Source: Candidatus Sysuimicrobiota bacterium CSP1-3 (GTDB lineage Bacteria; Sysuimicrobiota; Sysuimicrobiia; Sysuimicrobiales; Humicultoraceae). From it: a stretch of 39,515 nt of DNA. The position numbers and the translations under genes are program-made. The first letter of the stretch is position 1. Each line of letters begins with the position of its first letter. The notes below the pieces were generated by a model. It worked only from the letters and a program-made list of their open reading frames with translations, did not search any database and was not told the DNA's origin. The stretch spans positions 1 through 39,515 of the forward strand of contig LDXQ01000013.1 in the NCBI GenBank assembly GCA_001443485.1, given 5' to 3'. Below, piece after piece: positions 2,972 to 35,231 of the stretch.

Positions 2972-3039
2972 AGTATAGGGAGGGCGATTTCGACCCCCCA
3001 TCGGGCGAGAGGTGGGTTCTCATCGGGCGGTCGCCTGAT
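2972..3039 (-). promoter_or_regulatory. gdhA promoter with tandem ATCGGGC boxes
   Basis: On the minus strand a -10 hexamer TATACT (2972-2977) is followed upstream by a 22-nt gap and then box 3000-3017 (ATCGGGC-GAGA-GGTGGGT). A second box lies 22 bp further at 3022-3039 (ATCGGGC-GGTC-GCCTGAT). The 17-bp-spaced -35 position reads TGGGGG, unlike TTGACA, so an activator at the boxes is inferred. Confidence 0.5.
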
Positions 3040-3114
3040 GGGCGCCCGCGCCTTTCCGCCAGCGCGCGCGGGTCGAGCGCCGCGCCCGCGCATCCGCCCG
3101 AATGAGTAGGGAAA

Positions 3115-3159
3115 ATCGGGCTCCGGCCCGATGGAGGGGTTCATCCCCGACGATACGCT
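3115..3159 (+). promoter_or_regulatory. Malic enzyme promoter with the perfect ATCGGGC-N4-GCCCGAT box
   Basis: The box at 3115-3132 (ATCGGGC-TCCG-GCCCGAT) is the only instance with both 7-nt arms perfect. A weak -10, TACGCT, lies at 3154-3159 after a 21-nt gap, which would place the transcript start near 3166, about 32 nt before the gene. The right arm continues as GATGG, as in several other copies. Confidence 0.45.
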
Positions 3160-3197: not shown

Positions 3198-5477
3198 ATG
3201 CCGATGCTGCGCGAGGACGCGCTCGAGTACCACAGCCGGGGTCGCCCCGGCAAGATCGCCATTGCCCTGACCAAGTCCTGCGCCACCCAGCGCGACCTCT
3301 CCCTGGCCTACACGCCGGGGGTGGCCGAGCCGGTGCGGGAGATCCACAAGGACCCGCTGGAGGCGTTCAAGTACACGGCTCGCGGCAACCTGGTCGCCGT
3401 GGTCACCAACGGCACGGCGGTGCTGGGCCTGGGCAACGTCGGCGCCCTGGCCGGCAAGCCGGTGATGGAGGGCAAGGGTCTGCTTTTTAAGCGCTTCGCC
3501 GACGTAGACGTCTTCGACATCGAGATCGACGCCACCGATCCCGACGAGATCGTGCGCATCGTCAAGGCGCTGGAGCCCACCTTCGGCGGCATCAACCTGG
3601 AAGACATCAAGGCGCCGGAGTGCTTCTACATCGAAGAGCGGCTGAAGGGACTGATGGACATCCCCGTCTTCCATGACGACCAGCACGGGACGGCGATCAT
3701 CAGCGGCGCCGCCCTGCTCAACGCTCTGGAGGTCGTGGGCAAGCCCATCGACAAGGTGCGCATCGTCATCAGCGGCGCCGGTGCTTCGGCCATCGCCTCC
3801 GCCGAGTTCTTCGTCAGGCTGGGCGTGCCCCGAGAGCACATCATGCTCGTGGACACCAAGGGCGTCATCTACAAGGGCCGTACCGAAGGGATAAACCCTT
3901 ACAAGGATCGGTTTGCCGTGGAGACACCGGCCCGCACGCTGGCCGACGCCCTGGTCGGCGCCGACGTGTTCCTCGGCCTCTCGGCGCCCAACATCGTCAC
4001 GCCGAATATGGTGCGGTCGATGGCCCGCGAGCCGATCGTCATCGCCATGGCCAACCCCGACCCGGAGATCACCTACGACGACGCGCGGGCGGCCCGGCCC
4101 GACGCCATCGTGGCCACCGGGCGGTCCGACTATCCGAATCAGGTGAACAACGTGCTGGGCTTCCCCTTCATCTTCCGCGGGGCGCTGGACGTGCGGGCGC
4201 GGGCGATCAACGACGAGATGAAGATCGCCGCCAGCAAGGCGCTGGCCGCTCTGGCGAAGGAGGAGGTGCCCGACTCGGTGCTGCGGGCCTACGGCCTGGA
4301 GATGCTGCGCTTCGGACGGGACTACCTGATCCCCAAACCGCTCGACCCGCGGGTGCCGCTGTGGGTGGCGCCGGCCGTCGCCGAGGCGGCGATGGCCACC
4401 GGCGTGGCCCGGCGGAAGGTCGACCTGGCCGCCTACCGCGAGGAACTGGCGCGCCGCCTGGTGCGTGGCTACGAGGTGACGTGCATCATCACCCAGAAGG
4501 CCAAGGCGGCGCCGAAGCGCGTCGTCTTCTCCGAGGGTGAGGAGCCGAAGATCATCCGCGCCGCGGCGATCCTGCACCGCGACGGACTGGCCCAGCCGAT
4601 CCTACTGGGGCGCGAGCCGGTCGTCCGCACCCGGATGGAGGAGATGGGGGTGGCCATTCCGGTCGAGATCATCAACCCCGATCTCTCGCCGCGCCTGGAC
4701 GCGTACGCCGCGGCACTCTACGAGGTGCGCCAGCGTAAGGGAATCACTCTGCGCGAAGCCCGGGCGCTGCTGCGCCAGCCCAACTACTTCGCCGCGATGA
4801 TGCTGCGGGCCGGCGACACCGACGCCTTCGTCGCCGGGCTGACCTACCACTACCCGGACGTCATCCGGCCCGCCCTGCAGGTGATCGGACCGGCGCCCGG
4901 GGTCTCCCGCGTCGCCGGGCTGTACGTGGTCATCCACGACGGCCACGTCTATCTGCTGGCGGACCCCACGGTGAACTTCGATCCCACGGCCGAGGAACTC
5001 GCCGACATCGCCGTGATGGCGGCGGAGAAGGCGCGGGAGTTCGACATCACGCCGCGCGTCGCCATGCTCTCCTTCTCCAACTTCGGTTCGACCCGTCACC
5101 CGCGGTCGGCCAAGATGGCCGAGGCCACGGCGCTGGTGCGCCGCCGCCGGCCGGACCTGATGATCGACGGGGAGATGATGGTGGAGATCGCGGTCTCGCC
5201 GGAGCAGCGCGCCGCGGACTATCCGTTCTCCGCCCTGGTCGGGGAGGCCAACGTGCTGATCTTCCCCAGCCTGGAGGCGGCCAACACCGGCTACAAACTC
5301 CTGCAGCACCTGGGCGGGGCCGTGGCCATCGGCCCAATCCTGATGGGCATGGCCAAGCCGGTGCACGTCCTCAGCCGCGGGACGGAGGTCTCGGACATCG
5401 TCAACATCGCGGCCATCGCGGTCGTGGACGCGCAGGAGGTCGACCGCGGGCGCGCCATCGCCAAGGTGGTCGCCTAA
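3198..5477 (+). CDS. maeB: NADP-type malic enzyme fused to a phosphotransacetylase-like domain
   Basis: A 759-residue hybrid of the MaeB class, which oxidatively decarboxylates malate to pyruvate. The N-terminal malic domain (about 10-160) has [23 protein letters not shown] and the metal/catalytic stretch [10 protein letters not shown]. The NAD(P)-binding domain (about 160-400) has [11 protein letters not shown] and [11 protein letters not shown]. From about residue 430 a phosphate acetyltransferase-like domain begins ([16 protein letters not shown]) and runs to the end. In characterised hybrids this domain is thought to be regulatory, responding to acetyl-CoA, rather than catalytic. The ATG at 3198 is preceded by GAAGGGG. 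It is followed after 12 nt by the CBS-BON gene, so the two are probably co-transcribed. Confidence 0.93.
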
Positions 5478-11067: not shown

Positions 11068-11136
11068 ATCATAGGGAGCGCTTGGAAGGAGCCGGAATCG
11101 GGCTGAAACCCTATCCTTATCGGGTGCGCGGCGGAT
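11068..11136 (-). promoter_or_regulatory. gltA promoter with tandem ATCGGGC boxes
   Basis: On the minus strand a -10 TATGAT (11068-11073) is separated by 23 nt from box 11097-11114 (ATCGGGC-TGAA-ACCCTAT). A second box follows 22 bp further at 11119-11136 (ATCGGGT-GCGC-GGCGGAT). The expected -35 reads TCCGGC. The layout copies that of gdhA. Confidence 0.5.
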
Positions 11137-11163
11137 GTAGCGCCGGTGCGCCCGCGCTAGGAT
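11097..11163 (+). promoter_or_regulatory. Sensor kinase promoter sharing the gltA boxes
   Basis: Read on the plus strand, the same pair of boxes stands upstream of a -10 TAGGAT at 11158-11163, 21 nt after box 11119-11136. The kinase ATG is at 11181, leaving a leader of about 10 nt that contains GGAG. One box pair could therefore control both divergent genes. Confidence 0.42.
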
Positions 11164-11180: not shown

Positions 11181-12815
11181 ATGACCGGTCCGCGCCTGGT
11201 GCTGGTGTTCTTCGTGTACGGCCTGGCGTTCTTCGCCATGGGCCTGGCCATCGCACTGGAGGCCCGCCGCACCACCGAACTGCGTCTGGCCCAGAGCCTG
11301 AAGTACCTGGCCGCGTTCGGGCTGCTGCACGGGTTCGTGGAATGGATCGACATGTGGCTGCTGCTCCCCGGCGACCTGGCGCCCGCCACGATCACGGTGC
11401 TGCGGGTCGTGCGGCTGGGGCTGTTTGCCACCAGCACGCTGCTGCTGGCGCTGTTCGGCACCACGCTGATCGGGCGGCTCGCGCCGAAGTACCGCTGGCT
11501 GGGATGGGTCCCCCTGGCGCTCTTCCTGTTCTGGCTGGCCAACTGGGGCGTGGGACCGCACCTCAACCCGCTGGCGACGCAGCAGTGGACGCCCGCGGCG
11601 CCCTCCTGTCTGCGCTGTCACGATCAGGGCGCCCCGAGTGTCACGGCGGCCGGCCCGGCCTGGGGTTCGTCGGTGACCGTGGCGGACATCTGGGCGCACT
11701 ATCTGATCTATCTGCCGGCCTCGCTCTTTGCCGCCGCCGCGCTGATCCTGCAGGGACGCCGTTTTGACGCCGGGGGGTACGCGCGCATCGGACGGGACTG
11801 CGGCTGGATGGCGGCAGCGTTTCTGGGCAACGCCCTGGTCGCGGGACTGATCGTTCCGCCGGCGCCCTTCGCCCCGGCCTCCTGGCTCAACTACGACAGC
11901 TTCCTCAACGTGGTCGGTCTGCCGCCGCAGGTCTTCCGGGCCGGCGTGGCCGTGCTCTTTGCCGTCTTCGGCGTGCGCATCCTGCGCGTCTTCGACATGG
12001 AGTTCGCGCGCCGGCTGGCCACGGCACAGGAGGGACAGCTGCGGGCGCAATCGCAGGCGCTGGACGTAGCCCGGCAGGCGGCGGAGTCTGCCGAGGCCTG
12101 GAACCGCGAACTCGAGGGGAAGGTGAAGGAGCGCACCGAAGAGCTCTTTGAGCAGGTGCGCCGCCTGGCCATCCTGGAGGAGCGGGACCGCCTGGCGCGG
12201 GAGATGCACGACAGCCTGGGGCAGGTGCTGGGCTTCGTCAACCTGAAGGCCAAGGTGGCGGCGGACCTGATCGGACGCGGCCACGCCGCGGTGGCCGCCG
12301 AGGAACTGGAGCAGATGCGCACCGCGGTGCAGGAGGCCTACCAGGAGGTGCGGCAGGCGATTCTCAGCCTCCGCACCACGCCGCAAGGCCAGGGGCTGCT
12401 GGCCAGCCTGCGCGAGTATGTACAGCGGCTGCGGGAGCAGTCGGGGCTGGACGTCCGCCTGGAGGCCGCCGACCACCTGCGCTTCCCCGAAGCCGTGGAG
12501 GCGCAGGTGATCCGTATCGTGCAGGAGGCGCTGACGAACGTGCGCAAGCACGCGCGGGCCTCCACCGTGACCGTGCGCTTTGCCCCGCAGCCCGGGGGCG
12601 GCACGGACGTCACCATCAGCGATGATGGGCACGGGTTCGATCTGGCCGCGGTGGAGTCGGGCCGGGGGACGCGCTTCGGCCTGCTGACCATGCGGGAGCG
12701 GGCGGAGAGCATCGGCGGGACGCTGTCGATTCAGACCGTCCCCGGGCAAGGGACGACGGTGCGGCTGTGGATTCCGGGAGGGCAGCATGGAACCGATTCG
12801 CGTACTGATCGTTGA
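11181..12815 (+). CDS. Membrane sensor histidine kinase (NarX/LiaS type) with a heme c motif in the sensor
   Basis: A 544-residue kinase. The N-terminal half has about seven hydrophobic segments (about 5-25, 42-62, 70-95, 107-125, 170-192, 208-228, 250-270). Between the fourth and fifth is a loop holding a single CXXCH motif (Cys143, Cys146, His147, in SCLRCHDQG). A coiled coil follows (about 275-330), then a HisKA_3 dimerisation domain (ERDRLAREMHDSLGQVLG, phospho-acceptor His343) and a HATPase domain (QEALTNVRKHA, then DDGHGFDL). If the loop is extracytoplasmic, the motif could carry covalent heme sensing redox state, oxygen or NO. The ATG at 11181 follows GGAG. It overlaps the response regulator gene by 29 nt, so the two are a pair. 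Confidence 0.9.
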   Translation: MTGPRLVLVFFVYGLAFFAMGLAIALEARRTTELRLAQSLKYLAAFGLLHGFVEWIDMWLLLPGDLAPATITVLRVVRLGLFATSTLLLALFGTTLIGRLAPKYRWLGWVPLALFLFWLANWGVGPHLNPLATQQWTPAAPSCLRCHDQGAPSVTAAGPAWGSSVTVADIWAHYLIYLPASLFAAAALILQGRRFDAGGYARIGRDCGWMAAAFLGNALVAGLIVPPAPFAPASWLNYDSFLNVVGLPPQVFRAGVAVLFAVFGVRILRVFDMEFARRLATAQEGQLRAQSQALDVARQAAESAEAWNRELEGKVKERTEELFEQVRRLAILEERDRLAREMHDSLGQVLGFVNLKAKVAADLIGRGHAAVAAEELEQMRTAVQEAYQEVRQAILSLRTTPQGQGLLASLREYVQRLREQSGLDVRLEAADHLRFPEAVEAQVIRIVQEALTNVRKHARASTVTVRFAPQPGGGTDVTISDDGHGFDLAAVESGRGTRFGLLTMRERAESIGGTLSIQTVPGQGTTVRLWIPGGQHGTDSRTDR

Positions 12816-13437
12816 CGACCACACTCTCTGGCGGCGCGGCGTCGCCTCCCTGCTGGCGAAGCAGGAGGGCCTGGAGGTCGTCGGCGAGGCCGCCGACGGG
12901 GAGGAGGCCGTCGAACGTGTGCGGGAGCTGATGCCCGACGTGGTGCTGATGGACATCAAGATGCCGCGGATGGACGGCCTGACTGCGGCGCGCCGCCTCA
13001 AGGAGGAGATGCCCTACCTGCGTATCATCATGCTCACCGTCTCCGAGACCGACGAGGACCTCTTCGAGGCGATCAAGGTGGGCGCCCAGGGCTACCTGCT
13101 GAAGAACGTCGACCCGGACCAATTGGTCACGGCGATCCACCAGGCGGAGCGCGGCGAGGTGCCCATCGCCCCCACGATGGCGGCGAAGATCCTGCGCGAG
13201 CTGGCCGCGCCCACCGAGCCCTCGATCCAGGCGCTCTCCGCGCGCGAGCGGGAGGTGCTGGAGCTGCTGGCCCGCGGCATGGCCAACAAGGAGATCGCCT
13301 TCCACCTGAAGATCTCGGAGAACACGGTGAAGAACCACCTGCGCAACATCCTGGAGAAGCTGCATCTGCAGAACCGCGTCCAGGCCGCCCTCTACGCCGT
13401 GCGCGCAGGACTGGTGGACAAGTCCACCGAGCGCTGA
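12787..13437 (+). CDS. NarL/FixJ-family response regulator
   Basis: A 216-residue two-component regulator partnered with the overlapping kinase. The receiver domain (1-120) has the acidic pair at residues 10-11 (IVDDH), phospho-acceptor Asp56 (VVLMDIKMP), the conserved Thr in LTVSE and the Lys in YLLKNVDP. The LuxR-type helix-turn-helix lies at about 150-212 (LSAREREVLELLARGMANKEIA, then NTVKNHLRNILEKL). It should bind DNA as a dimer when phosphorylated. NarL-type regulators commonly control respiratory genes, and cytochrome operons lie on both sides. Its binding sites are unknown; it is one candidate, though not the favoured one, for the ATCGGGC boxes. Confidence 0.95.
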   Translation: MEPIRVLIVDDHTLWRRGVASLLAKQEGLEVVGEAADGEEAVERVRELMPDVVLMDIKMPRMDGLTAARRLKEEMPYLRIIMLTVSETDEDLFEAIKVGAQGYLLKNVDPDQLVTAIHQAERGEVPIAPTMAAKILRELAAPTEPSIQALSAREREVLELLARGMANKEIAFHLKISENTVKNHLRNILEKLHLQNRVQAALYAVRAGLVDKSTER

Positions 13438-15356: not shown

Positions 15357-15694
15357 CGCCGCCACACCGCCGGCTTGCGGGGGGTCTGTTCGCTGCCGCG
15401 ATGGGTCATGAATTTGACGGTCCGTGGATGCTTGGACGTATGGATGCAGCGCACGGGAGGGCGGGAGGCGCGAGCATGCGGAGAGGCTCCCCCACCGGAT
15501 GCGACTAGTTCCTCCGGACCAACTCACCGGCCGAACCGCACGCTTCCGCTAGTCCCTCCGCTGACCCGGTCGGGCCAGAGGAGCCCACCCTGTCGGGAGC
15601 GTCTCTCTAGCCTGGTTTGGGGGCCGTGAATCGCCCGCCCACTCGATGGGCGCGAACGCCTCCCGCTTCTACGGTAGAGGTGGAGGCGATCGTG
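15357..15694. other. Intergenic gap between the ArsR-like gene and the degenerate receiver gene
   Basis: About 338 nt without a supported gene. The plus-strand frame 15162-15629 is mostly a shadow of the ArsR-like gene. The right end holds a weak box (15630-15647) and a TACGGT hexamer. A TTGACG at 15414-15419 followed by GTATGG about 18 nt on is a possible but weak sigma-70 promoter. A loose CCGGA/TCCGG repeat near 15500-15520 is not convincing as a terminator. Confidence 0.45.
15630..15675 (+). promoter_or_regulatory. Weak ATCGGGC-type box and -10 before the receiver gene
   Basis: ATCGCCC-GCCC-ACTCGAT at 15630-15647 matches 5 of 7 positions in each arm of the consensus and continues as GGG, like other copies. 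TACGGT follows at 15670-15675 after a 22-nt gap. It is the weakest member of the set and could be chance. Confidence 0.28.
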
Positions 15695-16478: not shown

Positions 16479-16548
16479 CGCCGTCAGGGGCGACGGGGGC
16501 AGCAATTCCCGGCATCCGCCGGTGCATGGTCTGAGCGAAGGATGGGAA

Positions 16549-16593
16549 ATCGGCCCAAGACCCGATGGCTTCACAGTAAGCGATCGGTACAGT
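16549..16593 (+). promoter_or_regulatory. ATCGGGC-type box and -10 before the 7-heme cytochrome
   Basis: ATCGGCC-CAAG-ACCCGAT (16549-16566) matches 6 of 7 positions in each arm, in a context (GGGAAAT...CCCGATGG) very like the malic enzyme box. TACAGT lies at 16588-16593 after 21 nt. A start near 16600 would leave almost no leader before the GTG at 16610, so transcription may also come from upstream. Confidence 0.38.
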
Positions 16594-16609
16594 GAAGTCG
16601 GAGGTTGCG

Positions 16610-17521
16610 GTGGGCCGACTTCCTTTATTGTTCGTCAGCCTGACCGCGTTCGCCGTGCTCCTGCTGGCGGGCGCGGCGGCGGCACAGGCGGCGCAGGAAG
16701 AGGAGGCCTGTCTGTCCTGCCACGCCGCCGAGGGGCTCACTCTCACTCTCCCCGGTAAGGAATCCCTGCCGGTCACCATTGATCCGAAGATCTTTAAGCA
16801 GTCGGTGCACGGCAGCGTCCTCACGTGTGCTACCTGCCACCCCAACAACACGCAGTACCCGCACCCGAAAGTGGCCGCCAAGACCTTGCGCGACTACAAG
16901 GTAGCGCGGGCGGAGATCTGCCAGACCTGTCACAGTGATGTGGCCAAGGAGTTTGCCGGCAGCATCCACGGGCGGGCGCTGGTGATGGGCTTTCCGGACG
17001 TGCCCAGCTGCACCTCCTGCCACGGCGCGCACGACGTCGTGCAGGCGTCCACGCCGGCCTTTCGCAACAACACGCCGCAGCTGTGCGGCACCTGCCACGG
17101 CGACCCGCGGATCATGGCCAAGTACGGACTGCGGCCGGTCTACGAGGCGTACATCCGGGAGTTCCACGGCGTCACCACTACGCTGTACAAGCTGACCAAG
17201 CCCTACAGCCCCACGCCGGCAGCGATCTGCTACGACTGCCACGGTGTACACAACATCAAGGACACCAACGACCCCGCCGCGCTGGTGGCCGCGGGGAACA
17301 TCCTCACCACCTGCCGGAAGTGCCACCCCACCGCCGGCCGGTTGTTCGCCAGCGCCTGGACCGAGCACGCGACGCCGGGTCCGCAGGCTAGCCCGCTCGT
17401 CTACTATGTGCAGGTCTTCTACCGGCTGCTCATCCCCTCGGTGCTGGGATTCCTGGTGATGCTCAGCGTGCTCGACCTGGGCCGCTGGGCGGGGGACCGG
17501 CTGAAGGGGCTGCGGGGATGA
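16610..17521 (+). CDS. Seven-heme cytochrome c with C-terminal membrane anchor
   Basis: A 303-residue exported cytochrome. The N-terminal signal (about 3-27, LPLLFVSLTAFAVLLLAGAAAAQA) is followed by seven CXXCH motifs: CLSCH, CATCH, CQTCH, CTSCH, CGTCH, CYDCH, CRKCH. A C-terminal transmembrane helix (about 265-287, RLLIPSVLGFLVMLSVLDLG) anchors it. The GTG at 16610 is preferred to the GTG at 16592, since GGAGG lies at 16600-16604 with 5 nt spacing. The stop overlaps the cytochrome b start (ATGA). Together they resemble membrane quinol dehydrogenase modules passing electrons from a b-type cytochrome to extracytoplasmic multiheme carriers. The terminal acceptor is not encoded here. Confidence 0.9.
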   Translation: MGRLPLLFVSLTAFAVLLLAGAAAAQAAQEEEACLSCHAAEGLTLTLPGKESLPVTIDPKIFKQSVHGSVLTCATCHPNNTQYPHPKVAAKTLRDYKVARAEICQTCHSDVAKEFAGSIHGRALVMGFPDVPSCTSCHGAHDVVQASTPAFRNNTPQLCGTCHGDPRIMAKYGLRPVYEAYIREFHGVTTTLYKLTKPYSPTPAAICYDCHGVHNIKDTNDPAALVAAGNILTTCRKCHPTAGRLFASAWTEHATPGPQASPLVYYVQVFYRLLIPSVLGFLVMLSVLDLGRWAGDRLKGLRG

Positions 17522-21340: not shown

Positions 21341-21411
21341 AGTCTAGCCGACCGCTGAGAGGCCGTGCCATCGGGCGGACGCCCGAGGCCGCCATCGGGC
21401 GGACGGGAAAT
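21341..21411 (-). promoter_or_regulatory. TAXI operon promoter with tandem ATCGGGC boxes
   Basis: On the minus strand -10 TAGACT (21341-21346) is followed upstream by a 23-nt gap and box 21370-21387 (ATCGGGC-GGAC-GCCCGAG). A second copy starts 24 bp further at 21394 (ATCGGGC-GGAC, weak second arm GGGAAAT). Both left arms are preceded by GCC. The expected -35 reads GGCACG. Confidence 0.5.
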
Positions 21412-26801: not shown

Positions 26802-27169
26802 CGTGACCACCTCGCCTTTACCGTAGTCCCGGGGGGTGCCGCCGGCATCGAGCAAGCTCCCTAATCGGCCGGGGGAGAAGAGCCCGAAAGTCCTCCGAGT
26901 TGTCCCACAAGTGGGTCTGCACATCGCGGGCGTGAAGCCAGGCGACCACTGGCGCTCCGTCGATGCCGCAGCGCATCTGGGTGCGACTTTGACGCGCGGT
27001 AGTCCGGTCGGATCAGGCCGCTAGTTCGAAGGGGGGATGAAGATACAGTTGTCGCGCGGTTTCCCGGGGAACGCGCGGCAATGGTTTCATCTGACCGCCC
27101 GATAGGCACCATCAGGGGCCACATCTAGGATGAACCAGGATGGCGGAGAGTCTCCAAAGAGGGTGGCCC
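26802..27169. other. Divergent gap between the HybA/HybB-like operon and the Hdr operon
   Basis: About 368 nt without a supported gene. It contains a small hairpin CCCAC-AA-GTGGG near 26905-26916 and the Hdr operon box and -10 (27086-27131). The minus frame 26861-27124 has the Arg/Ser/Pro-rich look of noncoding high-GC DNA. No clear promoter was found for the leftward operon. A near-box ATCGGCC at 26864 has no second arm or correctly placed -10. Confidence 0.5.
27086..27131 (+). promoter_or_regulatory. Hdr operon promoter with an ATCGGGC half-box
   Basis: The right arm GCCCGAT is perfect at 27097-27103 and the spacer is GACC, but the left arm (TTCATCT) is poor, so this is a half-site. A -10 TAGGAT lies at 27126-27131 after exactly 22 nt, identical to the kinase promoter hexamer. 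Transcription would start near 27138, favouring translation from the ATG at 27170. Confidence 0.42.
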
Positions 27170-28378
27170 ATGCGCGATGCGGCGGGGATTCCGGAACGGA
27201 CAGACGCTGAGCCGGTTCTGGCGAATCTCCTGGCAACTCCTCAGGGCAGGAGGATCCTGACCTGCATTCAGTGCGGAGTCTGCGCGGGGACCTGCCCCTA
27301 CGGAGAGGTGATGGACTATCCGCCCCGCCGCATCATCGGGCTCCTGCGCGCGGGGGAACTCGATGAGGCGCTATCCAGCGAGAGCCTGCTCGGCTGCGTG
27401 GGATGCTACGCTTGCATGGCCAAGTGCCCGCGGGGCATCCGGCTGACCGAGGTCCTGCTGCCCCTGGTGAAGGAAGAGGTCTTCCTCCGCCTCCCCGACG
27501 TCCCGACGGAGTTGAAGCGGGCGCTCGACAACACGCTGCGCTACGGCAACCCGATGGGGGCCGCACCGCGCAAGCGCGCCGAGTGGGTGAAGGGCGCGGG
27601 CGTGCCCATCCGCAGCCTGGCAGACGCCCCGCAGCCGGTCGACGTTCTCTGGTTCGTCGAATGCTATCCCTCCTACACGCCGCGCGGACAGGAGGTCAGC
27701 CGGGCGACGGCCCGCCTCTTCACCGCGCTGGGGATTGACTTCGCCATCCTGGCCAATGAGGAGAAGTGCGCCGGCGAATGCTCGCGGCTGGTGGGCGAGG
27801 CGGGGCTCTTCGGGACGCTGACCGACTACAACATCGCGATCTTTCGCAAGTACCGGTTCGGCCGCGTCGTCACCGGGGACCCGCACGCGTACGACGCCTT
27901 CCGGTACCAGTACCCGGCCCTGGGCTTTGACGCCCACGTGGAGCACACGGTCCCCTTCCTCGTCCCGCAGCTGGAGCGGCTGCGCCCACTGCTGTCGAGG
28001 CGACTGGACTATGCCGTGACCTATCACGACTCCTGCTGCCTGGGGCGCCACAACGGGTACTACGACGAGCCGCGGGACCTGCTGGTGGCGATCCCCGGCG
28101 TGCGGCTCGTGGAGATGGTGCACAACCGGGTGAACACCATCTGCTGCGGCGGGGGCGGCGGGGGGATGTGGCTCGACGCCTACTACAAGACCAAGGGATA
28201 CGAGCGGCTGGCCGAGCGGCGGGTCCAGGAAGCGCTGGCCACCGGGGCGGACGTGCTGGCCGTCTCCTGCCCGTATGAGATCGCGCGCTTCGAAGACGCG
28301 CTGAAGGTCCTGGGAGAAGAGAAGCGGATGGTCGTGCGAGACGTTGTGGAGCTCCTAGCGGAAGCCATGGGGCCGTAG
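27170..28378 (+). CDS. Soluble HdrD-like Fe-S oxidoreductase
   Basis: A 402-residue protein combining an HdrC-like ferredoxin part with an HdrB-like cysteine-rich part. Two 4Fe-4S groups are near the N-terminus: CIQCGVCAGTCP (about 32-43) and CVGCYACMAKCP (about 75-86). The C-terminal part has two CCG-type repeats. The first is degenerate (FVECYPSY, then KCAGEC, then TGDPH where CXXC should be). The second keeps C, CC and C (DSCCLGRHNG, TICCGGGGGG, VSCPYE), so probably one noncubane cluster forms. No membrane helix is present. The ATG at 27170 follows GAGGG and fits the predicted transcript start; ATG at 27140 is an alternative. First gene of the long Hdr operon, 4 nt before the kinase. Confidence 0.87.
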   Translation: MRDAAGIPERTDAEPVLANLLATPQGRRILTCIQCGVCAGTCPYGEVMDYPPRRIIGLLRAGELDEALSSESLLGCVGCYACMAKCPRGIRLTEVLLPLVKEEVFLRLPDVPTELKRALDNTLRYGNPMGAAPRKRAEWVKGAGVPIRSLADAPQPVDVLWFVECYPSYTPRGQEVSRATARLFTALGIDFAILANEEKCAGECSRLVGEAGLFGTLTDYNIAIFRKYRFGRVVTGDPHAYDAFRYQYPALGFDAHVEHTVPFLVPQLERLRPLLSRRLDYAVTYHDSCCLGRHNGYYDEPRDLLVAIPGVRLVEMVHNRVNTICCGGGGGGMWLDAYYKTKGYERLAERRVQEALATGADVLAVSCPYEIARFEDALKVLGEEKRMVVRDVVELLAEAMGP

Positions 28379-28382
28379 GGAC

Positions 28383-30404
28383 ATGAGCGCGGTCAGCCAT
28401 TCCGAACACGGGATGCGCGCACGACTCCCCACGCCCGCCGCGTGGAGGCGCATGCTGGACGTGGTCGCGGCGCGCCGGGGGCGCCTGCCCATCGCGGCCA
28501 AGTTGATCCTCAGCTACCTGCTGATCATCGCGGTCGCCGTCGTTGTCTTCGTCGTGGTGGGGACACAGTTGGTTGGGCGGCTGATCCTCTCCGAGGCGCA
28601 GAGCTCGGTGAGCAACGCGCTGAACACGGCGCGCGAGGTCCTCTCCGGCCGGCTGGACGACGTGCACGATGTCGTCCGCCTGACTGCCGACCGGTTCGCC
28701 CTGAAGGACGCGCTGCAGAGCGGGAAGGTTGAGGAGGTCGCCGCGGAGCTGGCCCGCGTCGCCAGGAGCGAAGGCCTGGACTTCCTCACGGCGACCGACG
28801 CCTCCGGGAGGGTCCTCCTGCGCACCAGCAACCCGGGGGTGGTCGGCGACTACCGCAACCACGACCCGCTCATCGCCGCGGCACGCACCCGGAAGGTCCC
28901 AATCGCCGCGGTGTCCGTTATGGCGGCGGGCGACTTGCGGCAGGAATCGGCTGTCCTCGCGGATCGGGCGTACTTCCGATTTATCCCCACGCCCAAGGCG
29001 CGGCCCCGGAGAGAGACGGAGGAGACGTCCGGGATGGTCCTCGAGGCGGTTGCCCCCATCCTGGATTACCGTAGCGGCCTGATCGGCTTTCTCTACGGCG
29101 GGGTGCTGCAGAACCGGAACTACGAGATCGTGGATAAGGTCAAGGAGACGGTCTTCCAGGGGCTGCGGTACGGCGGCAGGGATGTGGGGACCGCCACCAT
29201 CTTTCTGGACGACCTCCGGATCGCCACCAACGTCCCGAACGCCGACGGCAGTCGGGCGGTCGGCACGCGCGTCGCCGCGGATGTCTACCGCCGCGTGGTC
29301 GGCGAGGGGCAGCGCTGGACCGCCCGCGCCTTCGTGGTGAACAACTGGTACATCACGGCCTACGAGCCCATCCGCAACATTAACAGCCAGACGATCGGCA
29401 TCCTGTACGTGGGGGTGCTGGAGCAAAAGTACGTGGACATCCGCCGGCGGACCATCGGCGCCTTCCTGGCCATCGCCCTGGCCGGCGGGCTGCTCTCCAT
29501 GGCGCTCTCCTACTACATCTTCCGCCGGGTCTCGCCCACCCTCTCCCGGCTGGCTTCCGCCGCGCGGGAGATGGCGCACGGCAGGCTGGATGTGCGGGTC
29601 ACGGCAAAAACTGACGATGAACTGGAGGACCTCGCAGACGCCTTCAACGCCATGGCCGCCTCCCTGCAGCAGCGGGACGAGCAACTGCGGGAATTTGCCC
29701 AGAGCAGGATCCGGGAGTCCGAGCGGCTGGCGATCACCGGTCAGCTGGCCGCCGGCGTGGCCCACGAACTGAACAACCCGCTCCAGGGCATCATCGCCTA
29801 CGCCCACATGCTCCTGGAGAAGGTGCCGCCGGACAGCCCCCTGCGGCCTTCCCTGCAGAAGATCGCCGCGCAGGCCGACCGCAGCCGGGAGATCATCCGG
29901 GGGCTCCTGGACTTTGCCCGGCCGCGTCCGCCGCACGTGCGCCCGGCCAACGTGAACGTCATCCTTCAGGAATGCGTCGCCCTGGTAGAAAACCAGGCGA
30001 TGTTCCACAACATCCGGGTCATCCGGAACCTCCAGCCCGACCTCCCCGCCGCGGTCGTCGACCCCTCGCAGATGCAGCAGGTCTTCATGAACATGGTCGT
30101 CAACGCCGCGGAGGCGATGGCGGGGGTGGGCACGCTGATTCTGAGCACCCGCTTCGACCCCGCGCAAAGGCGCATCGAGATCGCGATCAGCGACACCGGC
30201 CACGGCATCCGGCCGGAGGACCTGGAGCGGATCTTCGATCCCTTCTTCACCACGAAGCCGTCGGGACACGGCGTGGGGCTGGGGCTGGCCATCAGCTACG
30301 GCATCGTCAAGGAACACAAGGGCACGATCACCGTGCAGAGCGAGGTGGGGAAGGGCACGACCTTCACCATCACGCTGCCGGTCGAGCCGGCGGAGGGCGC
30401 GTAG
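28383..30404 (+). CDS. Membrane sensor histidine kinase with large extracytoplasmic Cache-like sensor
   Basis: A 673-residue kinase. TM1 spans about 40-64 (AAKLILSYLLIIAVAVVVFVVVG), followed by a sensor domain of about 290 residues resembling Cache domains (FLTATDASGRVLLRT, then NNWYITAYEPIRNINSQTIGILYVGV). TM2 (about 359-380) leads to HAMP (about 380-432, with SRLASAAREMAHGRLDVRV). The HisKA site is GVAHELNNPLQGI (His461), and the HATPase part has MNMVVNAAEAM, DTGHGIRPEDLERIFDPFFTTK and GVGLGLAISYGIVKEH. It is thus an NtrB/ZraS-like kinase. It lies inside the Hdr operon, 3 nt before the receiver-kinase, so it probably senses an external substrate and adjusts Hdr/Etf function or expression. 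Confidence 0.93.
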   Translation: MSAVSHSEHGMRARLPTPAAWRRMLDVVAARRGRLPIAAKLILSYLLIIAVAVVVFVVVGTQLVGRLILSEAQSSVSNALNTAREVLSGRLDDVHDVVRLTADRFALKDALQSGKVEEVAAELARVARSEGLDFLTATDASGRVLLRTSNPGVVGDYRNHDPLIAAARTRKVPIAAVSVMAAGDLRQESAVLADRAYFRFIPTPKARPRRETEETSGMVLEAVAPILDYRSGLIGFLYGGVLQNRNYEIVDKVKETVFQGLRYGGRDVGTATIFLDDLRIATNVPNADGSRAVGTRVAADVYRRVVGEGQRWTARAFVVNNWYITAYEPIRNINSQTIGILYVGVLEQKYVDIRRRTIGAFLAIALAGGLLSMALSYYIFRRVSPTLSRLASAAREMAHGRLDVRVTAKTDDELEDLADAFNAMAASLQQRDEQLREFAQSRIRESERLAITGQLAAGVAHELNNPLQGIIAYAHMLLEKVPPDSPLRPSLQKIAAQADRSREIIRGLLDFARPRPPHVRPANVNVILQECVALVENQAMFHNIRVIRNLQPDLPAAVVDPSQMQQVFMNMVVNAAEAMAGVGTLILSTRFDPAQRRIEIAISDTGHGIRPEDLERIFDPFFTTKPSGHGVGLGLAISYGIVKEHKGTITVQSEVGKGTTFTITLPVEPAEGA

Positions 30405-30407
30405 GCG

Positions 30408-31571
30408 ATGAGCGCGGGCGCCCGGGTCTTGATCATCGACGACGAGGAGATCGTGCTGGACGTCTGCCGCGAGATCCTCGAGGGCGATAACTACACCGTG
30501 GCGACGGCCCCCGACGGGGCGCAAGGGCTGTCGCTCGCAGAGGAGTTCGGACCGGACGTGGTCTTCGTCGACCTGAAGATGCCCGGCCTCTCCGGTTTTG
30601 AGGTTCTGGAGCGCCTCCGCACCCGTGATCCGTCCATCGTGCCCATCGTCATCACCGGCTACGCCACGCTCGCCTCGGCCGTGGAGGCGATGCAGAAAGG
30701 CGCCTACGACTTCGTCCCCAAGCCCTTCACCCCGGAGGAGTTTCGGCTGATCACCCGGCGGGCGCTGGAGAAGCGGCGGCTGGTGCGGGAGACCATCGCC
30801 CTACGGCGGGAGCAGGAGATGCTGCGCGAGAACTTCGCCGCCATCGTCGCCCACGAACTGAAGGCGCCGCTGGCCGCGGTGCAGCAGAACCTCCTCCTGC
30901 TGACGGTGGAACTCGCGGACAGGCTGACGGACGCGCAGAAGGAACGGCTGGCGCGCCTGCGGTCCCGCCTCGACGACCTCCTGAAGATGATCGATACCTG
31001 GTTGCGGGCGATCTCCGCCGATCTGGGGAAGATCCGGGAGCGGTTCCTGCCGACGGACGTGGCCGGCGTGATCGCCAAGGCCGTCGAGACCGTGCAGCCG
31101 TACGCGGCGCGCAAGGACATCGAGATCACACAGGCGCTGCCGCCGTCCCTCCCCGCGGTGCACGGGGACGAAGGCACGCTGGGCGAGGCGCTGACCAACG
31201 TCCTGAGCAATGCCGTCAAGTACTCCTACGCGGGCGGCAAGGTCGGCGTGAGCGCGCGGGTGGACGACGAACGCATACTCATCGCCGTGACGGACGCCGG
31301 CGTGGGGATCGCCCCAGACGAACTGCCCTACATCTTCGGCGACTTCTACCGGGGGCGGGCCGGGGTCACCGGTGAGGCGGGAGCCGGGCTCGGGCTGGCC
31401 GTCACCCGCCGGATCGTCGAGGCGCACGGCGGGACAATCACGGCGGAGAGCATGCCGGGGAAGGGCAGTACCTTCGTCATCACCCTGCCGGTGCGCCGGG
31501 CGGCGGAGGCGGCGCGTGATCGACCGGAGGCGCAGAACCGACCAGTGGCACCGTTGGGGGGTGCGGTATGA
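30408..31571 (+). CDS. Receiver-first hybrid histidine kinase
   Basis: A 387-residue cytoplasmic protein with receiver and kinase in reversed order from typical hybrids. The receiver (1-122) has the acidic pair in LIIDDEE, phospho-acceptor Asp55 (VVFVDLKMP), the Thr in VITGYA and the Lys in VPKPFTP. After a coiled linker comes HisKA (IVAHELKAPLAAVQQN, His149) and HATPase (NVLSNAVKYSYAGGKV, DAGVGIAPDELPYIF, GLGLAVTRRIVEAHGG). It lacks a membrane segment and a DNA-binding domain, so it looks like a relay step. It overlaps the next gene by 4 nt (ATGA) and follows the membrane kinase by 3 nt. Confidence 0.93.
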   Translation: MSAGARVLIIDDEEIVLDVCREILEGDNYTVATAPDGAQGLSLAEEFGPDVVFVDLKMPGLSGFEVLERLRTRDPSIVPIVITGYATLASAVEAMQKGAYDFVPKPFTPEEFRLITRRALEKRRLVRETIALRREQEMLRENFAAIVAHELKAPLAAVQQNLLLLTVELADRLTDAQKERLARLRSRLDDLLKMIDTWLRAISADLGKIRERFLPTDVAGVIAKAVETVQPYAARKDIEITQALPPSLPAVHGDEGTLGEALTNVLSNAVKYSYAGGKVGVSARVDDERILIAVTDAGVGIAPDELPYIFGDFYRGRAGVTGEAGAGLGLAVTRRIVEAHGGTITAESMPGKGSTFVITLPVRRAAEAARDRPEAQNRPVAPLGGAV

Positions 31572-31987
31572 GTGAGAAAGCCAGAGTGCTGATCATCGAC
31601 GACGATCCCGATTTCGTGGACGGGATCCGAGGCGTCCTGGAAGCGGCGGGCTACCAGGTCGACGCCGTCTACAATCCCAAGGCCGGCTTCGAGGCGCTGA
31701 AGCGCCGGCCCCCCGACCTGCTGCTGCTGGACATCCTGATGGGCCGGGGTGCGGAGGGGGTCATGCTGGCGCGCAAGATGCGGAAGGATCCGCAGCTCAG
31801 CCAGATCCCCACGCTCATCATCACCGGCCTGCGGGAGCAGATCGCCTTCCTCTTCCCGGGACAGGCGGTGCATCCGCACATCCTCGCCGTCGACGAGCTG
31901 ATGGAGAAGCCGGTCGACCCGCAGCTGCTCCTGGACCGGGTGAAGGCTCTGCTGGACGCGGCCGCCCGGCGCCGGGTGGCGGGGTAG
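31568..31987 (+). CDS. Single-domain response regulator
   Basis: A 139-residue receiver with no output domain. Conserved positions are all there: acidic pair in LIIDDDPDF, phospho-acceptor Asp55 (LLLLDILMGRG), Thr in LIITGLRE, and Lys in LMEKPVDP (about 113). An insertion (QIAFLFPGQAVHPHILAVD) lies before the final helix. It may act by contact with a partner protein, perhaps an Hdr or Etf component, or serve as a phosphate sink. It ends 9 nt before hdrC. No DNA-binding domain is found in any of the three signalling proteins of this operon. Confidence 0.92.
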   Translation: MSEKARVLIIDDDPDFVDGIRGVLEAAGYQVDAVYNPKAGFEALKRRPPDLLLLDILMGRGAEGVMLARKMRKDPQLSQIPTLIITGLREQIAFLFPGQAVHPHILAVDELMEKPVDPQLLLDRVKALLDAAARRRVAG

Positions 31988-31996
31988 GAGTGGACG

Positions 31997-32560
31997 ATGG
32001 CCCGGACGCTCACGTTTGAACAAGAGATTGCCAACCTCTTCTATGCCATGGACAGCAACCCGGTGCAGGCCTGCATTCAGTGCGGCATCTGCTCCGGGAC
32101 GTGCCCGGCCGTGGCGTTCATGCAGCACTCGCCGCGGGCGATTATCGCCATGATCCGCGCCGGCCAGAAGAAGGCGGTCCTGGCCAGCAATACCTACTGG
32201 GCCTGCGCCTCCTGCTACGCCTGCAGCGTGAAGTGCCCCCAGGGGATCGACGTGGCCGCGATGATGTACGGGCTGAAGCGCTATTCCCTGTGGCGCAACC
32301 ACTACCGGACGGTCCCCCTGGGGGCGGACTTCTCGCGCCGTTTTGTCCGCCTCATCACCAAATACGGCCGGTCCTATGAGCCCGGCCTGGCCGCGCCCTA
32401 CGTGCTGCGGCACGGGTTCCGCGGCCTGCTGGACGAGATCCGCACGGCGCTGGGACTGTTGCGCAAGGGGCGGCTCCCCCTGCTGCCGCACCGGATCAAA
32501 CGCGCGGAGAGCCTGCGCCGGGTGATCTGGCAGATTCTGCCGGTGGGAGGACGCGCATGA
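31997..32560 (+). CDS. hdrC: Heterodisulfide reductase subunit C-like protein
   Basis: A 187-residue ferredoxin-type subunit. Two 4Fe-4S groups, CIQCGICSGTCP (about 26-37) and CASCYACSVKCP (about 70-81), match HdrC, which passes electrons between HdrA and HdrB. The rest (about 100-187) is a basic helical tail longer than in minimal HdrC. The stop overlaps the hdrB start by 4 nt. No CoM-CoB chemistry is expected in a bacterium; the true disulfide or other acceptor is unknown. Confidence 0.92.
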   Translation: MARTLTFEQEIANLFYAMDSNPVQACIQCGICSGTCPAVAFMQHSPRAIIAMIRAGQKKAVLASNTYWACASCYACSVKCPQGIDVAAMMYGLKRYSLWRNHYRTVPLGADFSRRFVRLITKYGRSYEPGLAAPYVLRHGFRGLLDEIRTALGLLRKGRLPLLPHRIKRAESLRRVIWQILPVGGRA

Positions 32561-33429
32561 AGGCCTACAGCTACTTTCCTGGGTGCTCCCTGGAACGGAT
32601 GGCCGCCTCCTATCGCCTCTCCGCGGCGGAGACGGCGCGGGCGCTGGGCGTCGAACTGCGTGAACTGGAGGACTGGAACTGTTGCGGGGCGACGGCGTAT
32701 TTCCACATCGACGAACTGCTGGCCGCGACCCTCTGCGCCCGCAACCTGGCGATGGCGGAGCAGGAGGGGCTGGACCTGGTCACGCCCTGCAGCGGCTGCT
32801 ACAAGAACATGTACTTCACGCGTGCTCATCTCCGGGAGGATCCCGACCTGGCGGAGCACGTGAACACCGCCCTCGCGGAGGACGGGCTGCAGTTTCGAGG
32901 CACCGTGCAGGTCAGGCATCTGATCGAGGTGCTGGTGCAGGACGTGGGCCTGCCGGAGATCAAGAAGCGCGTCACCCATCCCCTGCGCGGCCTGCGCGTG
33001 GCACCCTACTACGGCTGCCAGATCCTGCGGCCGCGCAAGGGGCGCGAGGACGATGAGCAGCCCCGCTTCTTTGAGGATCTCCTGACGACGATCGGGGCGT
33101 CCCCGGTCGACTTCCCCTTGCGCGACCGGTGCTGCGGCGGGTCCCTGATCGTCACCCACCGCCAGGCCGCCCTCAGCATGGCGTACGCCCTGCTGCAGGA
33201 TGCCATTGATCACGAGGCCGAGGTGATTGCCACTGTCTGCCCGCTCTGCCAGGTCAATCTGGAGTGCTACCAGCGCCATGTCAACCGCACCTTCGGCACC
33301 AACTTCGGCCTGCCGGTTCTCTACTTCACGCAGCTCTTGGGGCTGGCGCTGGGGATTCCGTCGCAGCGATTGGGGATCGGCAAGGAGCTGATCTCTCCCG
33401 CTCCGGTGCTGGCGCGGGTCGGGGGATGA
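32557..33429 (+). CDS. hdrB: Heterodisulfide reductase subunit B-like protein
   Basis: A 290-residue HdrB-like catalytic subunit with two complete CCG repeats (CX31-39CCX35-36CXXC). Repeat 1: FPGCSLERMA (Cys9), DWNCCGATAY, TPCSGCYKN. Repeat 2: YYGCQILRP, RDRCCGGSLI, TVCPLCQVN. In methanogen HdrB these hold two noncubane 4Fe-4S clusters where the disulfide is cleaved. Full conservation here, unlike in the two HdrD-like paralogues of the operon, suggests an active disulfide-type site. It lies between hdrC (4-nt overlap) and etfB (25-nt gap). Confidence 0.93.
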   Translation: MKAYSYFPGCSLERMAASYRLSAAETARALGVELRELEDWNCCGATAYFHIDELLAATLCARNLAMAEQEGLDLVTPCSGCYKNMYFTRAHLREDPDLAEHVNTALAEDGLQFRGTVQVRHLIEVLVQDVGLPEIKKRVTHPLRGLRVAPYYGCQILRPRKGREDDEQPRFFEDLLTTIGASPVDFPLRDRCCGGSLIVTHRQAALSMAYALLQDAIDHEAEVIATVCPLCQVNLECYQRHVNRTFGTNFGLPVLYFTQLLGLALGIPSQRLGIGKELISPAPVLARVGG

Positions 33430-33454
33430 GGGTGGGAGAGAGGAGGCGGGCCGG

Positions 33455-34237
33455 ATGCTCAACATCCTCGTGCTGGTGAAGCTGGTCCCGGACACTGTGG
33501 AGGAACTGGAGATCGCCCCCGATGGCCGGTCCCTGGATCCCGCCTCCGTCCGGCTGATCCTGAGTGAGCGCGATGAGCACGCCCTGGAGCAGGGACTCCT
33601 GCTCAAGGAACGATACGGCGGAACGCTCACCGTTATCGCCCTCGATGTCCCCGAAGTGGACGACGTGCTGTTCACGGCGCTGGCGAAGGGAGCGGACCGG
33701 GCAGTGAAGATCACGGGGATGGAACCGGGTCCGAGCACCTGGACCGCCGCCGGACTGGCTGCCCGGACGCTGGCTGCCGGGCCGGGGCTGCTGCCGGCGG
33801 ATCTCATCCTGACCGGAGTTCAGGCCATCGACGACCTGGACGGCCAGGCGGGCCCCATCCTGGCGCGGCTGCTGGAACTGCCATACGTCGGCATCACCTG
33901 CCGCGTAGAGGTGGATCCGGGCGCCCGCAGCGCCGTGGTAGTGCGGGAGTATGTCGGCGGGGTGACGGGGACCTTTGAGGTTTCGCTGCCGGTGGTGCTG
34001 GGCGTGCAGTCTGCGGAGAAGCCACCGCGCTATGTCCCGGTGGCGAAGGTGCGCGCAGCGATGAAGTCGCAGCGGCTGGAATCGGTACCAGCGTCGGGAG
34101 AATCCGCGGTGATGCGCGTGGAGATTCTCCAGTTGATGAAACCCGAGGCGACAGGACGCGCCGTCATGCTGGACGGCGCACCGGAGGAGGTCGCGGCGCA
34201 GCTTTGCGATGTTCTGGCGGCACGCGGCCTCCTGTAG
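33455..34237 (+). CDS. etfB: Electron transfer flavoprotein subunit beta
   Basis: A 260-residue EtfB, which binds AMP or FAD together with EtfA and moves electrons from acyl-CoA or similar dehydrogenases. Typical elements: VLVKLVPDTVEELEIAPDG (about 5-23), LSERDEHALEQGLLLKE (about 36-52), ADLILTGVQAIDDLDGQAGPILARLLELP (about 116-144), and the closing LPVVLGVQSAEKPPRYVPV. GGAGG lies about 7 nt before the ATG. Whether this Etf bifurcates cannot be decided by eye. Its place beside a membrane Fe-S oxidoreductase favours electron delivery to quinone. Confidence 0.94.
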   Translation: MLNILVLVKLVPDTVEELEIAPDGRSLDPASVRLILSERDEHALEQGLLLKERYGGTLTVIALDVPEVDDVLFTALAKGADRAVKITGMEPGPSTWTAAGLAARTLAAGPGLLPADLILTGVQAIDDLDGQAGPILARLLELPYVGITCRVEVDPGARSAVVVREYVGGVTGTFEVSLPVVLGVQSAEKPPRYVPVAKVRAAMKSQRLESVPASGESAVMRVEILQLMKPEATGRAVMLDGAPEEVAAQLCDVLAARGLL

Positions 34238-34249
34238 GCGGTGAGGCGT

Positions 34250-35230
34250 ATGGCCGGTGAGATCTGGGTGTTGGTGGAGCAGTGGCGCGGCCGGATCTCT
34301 GACATCACCTATGAGGTGCTGGCGCTCGGCCGGGAAGTCGCGGAAGCCCTTGCCGGGAGCCTGCAGGCGGTCGTGTTGGGGCCCGGCGCCGGGGAATCGA
34401 TTTTTTCGCTGGGCGCGGCTGACGGTGCGCTGATGGTCGAACATTCGGCGCTGGCCGAACCGGTGCCGGAGGTCTACGCGCTGGCTCTGGCCCAGATCAT
34501 CCCGCAGCGACAGCCGCAGGCGCTGCTGATCCCGCAGACCAACGTGACGATGGAGCTGGGGCCGCTGCTGGCCGCGCGCCTGGCGGTACCCTTCCTCAAT
34601 TCCTGCCGGGACGTGCAGGTGACTGACGGCCGACCTGTGGCCCGCTGCATCCTCTACGGGGGCAAGGTCGAAGCCTCCGTGACCCCGCAGAGTGCCCCCG
34701 CCGTTTTCGGGATTCTCCCCGGGGTGCGGCCGCCGGAACAGGGACGGGTGGAGCGGGCGCCCGCCGTGAGGGCGCTCTCCGTTGATCTGCCGACGGAATT
34801 CCCGCTGCGGTTCCGCGGCTACACCGAACTTGAAGCGGGCGATGTCGACATCACGAGGGAGAACGTCCTGGTCGCGGTGGGGCGCGGAATCCAGCGGCCG
34901 GAGAACGTGGCTCTGGCGGAAGAACTGGCGGCAGCGCTGGGCGGCGCCGTCTGCGGATCTCGCCCGGTGATCGACCAGCGCTGGTTGCCTCCGTCGCGGC
35001 AAGTCGGGACATCCGGGATGATCGTCAAGCCGCAGCTCTATCTGGCACTGGGCATCAGCGGCGCCCCGGAGCACGCGCAAGGGATGAAAGAAGCCGCGCT
35101 GATCGTCGCGATCAACACCGATCCCCGGGCGCCCATCTTCGACATCGCCCACTACGGCGTCGTCGGTGACCTGTTGGAGATCGTTCCTGCCATGACCACA
35201 CGGGTGAAGCAGGGAAAGCAGGCGGCATGA
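34250..35230 (+). CDS. etfA: Electron transfer flavoprotein subunit alpha
   Basis: A 326-residue EtfA. The N-terminal part (EIWVLVEQWRGRISDITYEVLALGREVA) is typical, and the C-terminal FAD-binding domain has VAVGRGIQRPENVALAEELAAALGG, SRPVIDQRWLPPSRQVGTSGMIVKPQLYLALGISG, and INTDPRAPIFDIAHYGVVGD. ATG at 34250 gives the usual N-terminus; GTG at 34241 is a close alternative. The spacing to etfB is 12 nt, and the following gene starts 1 nt after the stop (TGACATG), so the Etf and the membrane oxidoreductase are tightly linked. Confidence 0.94.
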   Translation: MAGEIWVLVEQWRGRISDITYEVLALGREVAEALAGSLQAVVLGPGAGESIFSLGAADGALMVEHSALAEPVPEVYALALAQIIPQRQPQALLIPQTNVTMELGPLLAARLAVPFLNSCRDVQVTDGRPVARCILYGGKVEASVTPQSAPAVFGILPGVRPPEQGRVERAPAVRALSVDLPTEFPLRFRGYTELEAGDVDITRENVLVAVGRGIQRPENVALAEELAAALGGAVCGSRPVIDQRWLPPSRQVGTSGMIVKPQLYLALGISGAPEHAQGMKEAALIVAINTDPRAPIFDIAHYGVVGDLLEIVPAMTTRVKQGKQAA

Positions 35231-35231
35231 C

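Follow-up and report, generated by a model that had tools for sequence, protein, structure and literature searches.

At class II promoters of Escherichia coli, the activators CRP and LuxR are centred at -41.5 and -42.5, respectively. IscR compensates for a missing -35 at the ydiU promoter (PMC8561392). The sites of DevR, a response regulator of the NarL subfamily from Mycobacterium tuberculosis, are closely packed, the proximal one overlapping the -35 (PMC3029386). Here we describe promoters of a related layout in Candidatus Sysuimicrobiota bacterium CSP1-3, a member of a phylum of likely facultative anaerobes (Sysuimicrobiota, or CSP1-3; PMC11604079). The window is a stretch of 39,515 nucleotides (contig LDXQ01000013.1, forward strand), in which an earlier note had described a recurrent box upstream of eight genes and read their promoters as needing an activator that overlaps the -35. 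That reading is supported by a fixed offset between box and -10, absence of TTGAC, weak -10s, and conservation of the offset across species, from which we infer activation.

Aligning the eight box and -10 pairs of the window side by side gave an 18-bp palindrome, ATCGGGYNNNNRCCCGAT, with the ends ATCGGG...CCCGAT. What had been called the box is the right half of this palindrome, a genuine part of a longer element, and all eight pairs lie in the sequence at the distances originally given for them. We scored mismatches of the window boxes against ATCGGGYNNNNRCCCGAT. On the reverse strand, gdhA has two boxes: a proximal one, ACCCACCTCTCGCCCGAT (3000-3017; four mismatches, one good half-site), 22 nt from the -10 TATACT (2972-2977), and a distal one, ATCAGGCGACCGCCCGAT (3022-3039; one mismatch), exactly 22 bp further upstream. 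The malic enzyme gene (mae) is preceded on the forward strand by an exact box, ATCGGGCTCCGGCCCGAT (3115-3132), at offset 21 from TACGCT (3154-3159); its product (3198-5477, forward strand) also contains a fused domain of the phosphate acetyltransferase type (PTA_PTB, MaeB-like). The gltA box ATAGGGTTTCAGCCCGAT (11097-11114, reverse strand; one mismatch) is at offset 23 from TATGAT (11068-11073, reverse strand), and 22 bp from it lies the forward-strand box of a kinase gene, ATCGGGTGCGCGGCGGAT (11119-11136; two mismatches), at offset 21 from TAGGAT (11158-11163).

The remaining pairs lie further along the window. A receiver gene has the box ATCGCCCGCCCACTCGAT (15630-15647, forward strand; three mismatches) at offset 22 from TACGGT (15670-15675), and a cytochrome gene has ATCGGCCCAAGACCCGAT (16549-16566, forward strand; one mismatch) at offset 21 from TACAGT (16588-16593). 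This cytochrome -10 overlaps the first GTG of the open reading frame at 16592 (window 16588-16610), so the true start is probably a later codon, for example the GTG near 16610 behind GGAGG. The TAXI box CTCGGGCGTCCGCCCGAT (21370-21387, reverse strand; one mismatch) is at offset 23 from TAGACT (21341-21346, reverse strand), and the box of the Hdr operon, TTCATCTGACCGCCCGAT (27086-27103, forward strand; four mismatches, one good half-site), is at offset 22 from TAGGAT (27126-27131). This Hdr/Etf-type operon (27140-39277, forward strand) carries signalling genes embedded between Fe-S/CCG proteins: a Cache/HAMP/HisKA kinase (28383-30404), a receiver-HisKA hybrid (30408-31571) and a receiver (31568-31987). 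Single weak members of the window set could be chance.

Four of these promoters, those of mae, the kinase, the receiver and the cytochrome, are kept in the sister species G001 with their box, their gene-specific offset (21, 21, 22 and 21) and their -10, and the spacer bases between have diverged. The -10 of mae reads TAGGCT in G001, the cytochrome box is identical, and the 22-bp tandem of boxes at the kinase is retained. No gdhA box was found upstream of G001 gdhA, which sits in a different context.

The palindrome is enriched well beyond the window. In the 2.54-Mb draft genome to which the window belongs, ATCGGGCNNNNGCCCGAT at no more than two mismatches has 46 sites, compared with 11 for the reversed pattern, roughly a fourfold excess, and at no more than one mismatch nine sites compared with one; enrichment is also seen in most relatives. 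Across the 43 genomes of the phylum, which are mutually related drafts, so that some orthologous sites of close relatives are counted more than once, an exact box followed by N21-23 and TANNNT has 73 matches in 22 genomes, and the reversed control has none. With two mismatches allowed over box and -10 together, there are 456 matches at offset 22 and six in the reversed control at that offset; at offset 29 there are 168, and in many of these the box is good and the mismatches fall in the -10. Most exact boxes of G005 cluster in a stretch of about 130 kb on a single 3.15-Mb contig (G005:C1:680001-835000), resembling a metabolic island. In 30 other genomes, reached through relatives of the window's own LuxR-type regulator, the box with its -10 has two matches; their coordinates coincide with matches in G032 and G014, both members of the phylum, the first being Armatimonadetes bacterium RBG_19FT_COMBO_69_19. 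This small sample thus shows no sign of the box outside the phylum. An Rfam scan of the window returned nothing that reached the gathering threshold, and the boxes there are therefore not accounted for by a known RNA family.

The distance from box to -10 is nearly invariant. We selected boxes blind to any -10 and outside the window, and in both the source genome and its relatives TANNNT begins 21-23 nt beyond the edge of the box, most often at 22. In the source genome, boxes with zero to two mismatches have 16 such hexamers against 0.9 expected, and the counts at offsets 19 to 25 are 0, 1, 2, 11, 3, 0 and 1, other offsets averaging about 0.3 each. In the relatives, the same pooled set has 77 against 2.7 expected, with counts of 1, 2, 15, 50, 12, 2 and 0 and a mean of about 0.9 at other offsets. 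The excess is present at every level of box quality: 32 against 0.5 for exact boxes, 25 against 1.3 with one mismatch, 20 against 0.9 with two, and 12 against 1.6 with three. Exactly 22 nt separates box and -10 in 62 of 99 box promoters, the remainder having 21 or 23. The genome-wide preference that the earlier note had proposed to look for is thus found, both in this genome and phylum-wide; and the selection bias that it conceded is not the source of the pattern, because blindly chosen boxes outside the window keep the offset that hexamers chosen by eye had suggested.

The elements around the box are poor. Ordinary promoters of this genome use a TTGAC -35, as TTGACN-N17/18-TANNNT has 77 matches in it and the control pattern 25; not one of the 99 box promoters has TTGAC at spacers of 15 to 20 bp, and their best string averages about two of six matches to TTGACA, in agreement with the original claim that nothing like TTGACA is present. 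That claim had placed the -35 at a fixed 17 bp: the absence of a good -35 stands, and the best -35-like string sits instead at an 18-bp spacer for offset 22, where the box end and the next bases form ATGnC, overlapping the box end by 2 bp. Judged by its sequence, ATGnC is a weak, vestigial -35. The -10 hexamers are weak as well, TAGGCT (15 of 99) and TACGCT (10 of 99) among them, and +1 is often G. Because there is no TTGAC and the -10s are weak, box promoters should be feeble unaided. Setting the -10 at -12 to -7 makes the palindrome span -52 to -35 at the commonest offset and refines the proposed centre near -43 to about -43.5. The arrangement is that of class II sites: in this genome and its relatives the box overlaps or abuts the -35 position, its spacing from the -10 is fixed, and the -35 itself is poor or missing. 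The 99 box promoters yielded 13 cases of a second box 22-24 bp further upstream. Second upstream boxes, seen in several genomes, also form a smaller cluster at 54-58 bp, and both spacings are near whole helical turns. Directly 5' of the box, opposite the -10 side, the bases are A/G-rich and GGGAAA-like (window 3107-3114 and 16541-16548, and box promoters generally); this flank is perhaps an UP-like element or a place of extra contacts.

Genes downstream of boxes include those for glutamate dehydrogenase, citrate synthase, malic enzyme and isocitrate dehydrogenase, for a flavoprotein of the succinate dehydrogenase/fumarate reductase type and for a protein of the NDP-forming acyl-CoA ligase type. 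Uptake and redox functions are represented by TAXI and other periplasmic binding proteins, multihaem cytochromes and Hdr/Etf-type proteins; CBS, Hsp20-like and receiver proteins also follow boxes, as do, in relatives, a Usp-like protein and a large protein that by eye resembles PFOR. Dozens of central-metabolism genes across this uncultured phylum appear to share one box switch, most likely a response-regulator site.

We searched for the regulator by comparing the box distribution with two families, the Crp-type HTH (PF13545) and LuxR-type proteins. In the source genome, on another contig than the window, G000:C107:2818-3465 encodes a receiver joined to a GerE domain (Response_reg 99.9 bits, GerE 70.3 bits) and lies directly downstream of boxes; beyond it (L050:4203-5939, G000:C107), behind a two-mismatch box at L050:4032, are a receiver gene and an aconitase-family gene. 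In a 93-row tree of LuxR-type response regulators, its clade has 41 members, 19 of them with a box in the 320 bp upstream; the other main clade has 35, none with such a box. In many clade members the box lies 21-22 nt ahead of a TANNNT directed towards the regulator gene, box and -10 forming the members' own promoters in at least five families; members without a box often directly follow a kinase gene. A clade member is present in 24 of 25 box-rich genomes and 7 of 18 box-poor ones (p = 5e-5 over 43 genomes, a value that overstates independence because the genomes are related). The exceptions are G036, where 10 sites make the genome box-rich and no clade member was found, G003, a 78% complete genome with exact boxes and no clade member found, and seven genomes with a clade member and few boxes. 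There are several paralogues per genome, and the recognition helix of the clade reads KTVQTHRAHIM. Among PDB entries the regulator is nearest to VraR (154 bits), NarL (124) and DevR (110). In G005 and G001, clade members have neighbouring kinases of the GAF-HisKA_3-HATPase type, and the solved structures nearest to a kinase beside a clade member are VraS, DesK and DevS. The activator is likely this NarL-family clade, rather than the LuxR-type regulator encoded in the window.

The window regulator (12787-13437, forward strand) and its neighbouring kinase could instead be a local two-component activator that binds the box, as the gene pair sits among boxes and the kinase promoter beside it has a box at offset 21 that is kept in G001. 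We regard this as quite improbable, as the regulator's orthologue is absent from several box-rich genomes, G005, G007 and G025 among them, and present in the box-poor genus g2, the orthologues show no association with boxes over the 43 genomes (Fisher p = 1.0), and none has a box within 900 bp of the regulator gene start. Phyletic pattern and the lack of a box near its own gene led us to reject this protein as master; it looks like a target. The same geometry and activation could also be due to an activator of another protein family, of which the NarL-type clade is merely a conserved target. G036, with boxes and no clade member found, fits such a reading, and our regulator comparison covered the PF13545 and LuxR-type families. 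It is nevertheless rather unlikely: the clade and the boxes co-occur, and the presence of the box in the clade's own promoters in several families is typical of autoregulation. A Crp/Fnr-type regulon in particular is unlikely, as the box-bearing genomes G001 and G013 (97-100% complete) have no full-length match to HTH_Crp_2 (PF13545).

Whichever protein binds, the box might be a repressor operator beside the -35, its occupant blocking polymerase. The box abuts or overlaps the -35, the weak ATGnC touches the box end, and for IscR a few bp decide between activation and repression (PMC8561392). Repressor sites, however, usually accept varied positions, and the fixed spacing found here argues against simple repression, as do the lack of TTGAC in any box promoter and the weakness of the -10s; we consider repression very unlikely. 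That the pattern is chance or hindsight, hexamers having been picked by eye in a G+C-rich genome, is conceivable for single sites: the selection was admitted at the outset, and in two of the eight boxes, the Hdr box and the proximal one of gdhA, just one half is good. For the set as a whole it is refuted by the recurrence of the offset at independent sites, both beyond the window and across 22 genomes, with none in the reversed control, and its probability is negligible.

We therefore favour, with reasonable though not full confidence, class II activator-dependent promoters of one regulon, read by the housekeeping sigma factor and probably bound by the clade of the NarL/FixJ-family regulator on C107. 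From the sequence evidence assembled here, a dimer of this regulator, presumably phosphorylated, would bind the palindrome so that its downstream half abuts the -35 position. Held there in a fixed helical phase, it would replace the missing -35 by contacting RNA polymerase, through sigma region 4, the alpha CTD or both, and so let a weak TANNNT -10 be used. The second boxes 22-24 bp upstream at gdhA and at gltA and the kinase suggest cooperative dimers. Predicted targets are TCA-cycle, glutamate, uptake, cytochrome, redox and CBS/Usp/Hsp20 genes, together with the regulator itself. Redox or oxygen as the signal is no more than a guess, based on the composition of the regulon and the GAF-HisKA_3 kinases beside clade members. 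A bolder proposal, that one NarL-family response regulator activates central carbon and respiratory metabolism almost globally throughout the uncultured phylum, at promoters largely without a -35 and in the role held elsewhere by Crp/Fnr-type proteins, is possible, and we put it forward tentatively.

For a phylum without genetics, these results supply an operator, the layout of its promoters and a candidate regulator by name, and they predict which genes switch together: those of the TCA cycle, glutamate metabolism, uptake, cytochromes, Hdr/Etf proteins and stress proteins. The fixed distance from box to -10 allows activator sites, -10s and likely transcript starts to be read from the raw sequence of uncultured bacteria. 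A literature search found no LuxR-type regulator with this operator; the mechanism would be of a known kind, and in the papers searched we found no description of the operator, the regulon or the candidate regulator.

VraR/VraS and NarL/NarX-type systems provide the closest solved structures to the regulator and kinase, a relation at family level only, and differ in targets and operator. DevR/DosR and OsdR of Streptomyces share several features with the system described here: these NarL-subfamily proteins likewise join a receiver to a LuxR-type HTH, have G/C-rich palindromic operators (AGGGCCGATCGGCCCT for OsdR; PMC5069765), have a box upstream of the regulator's own gene, and count Usp and heat-shock genes among their targets. 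The operator here is not of this Dev-box type; it is 18 bp long with its own conserved ends, the core of the regulon is TCA-cycle, glutamate and respiratory genes, and the clade has its own recognition helix. Compared with the class II activators of E. coli, the centre lies one or two bp further upstream, the operator is unrelated and activation is what we infer; but, as with CRP, LuxR and IscR at ydiU, the site overlaps or abuts a poor -35 at a set spacing from the -10.
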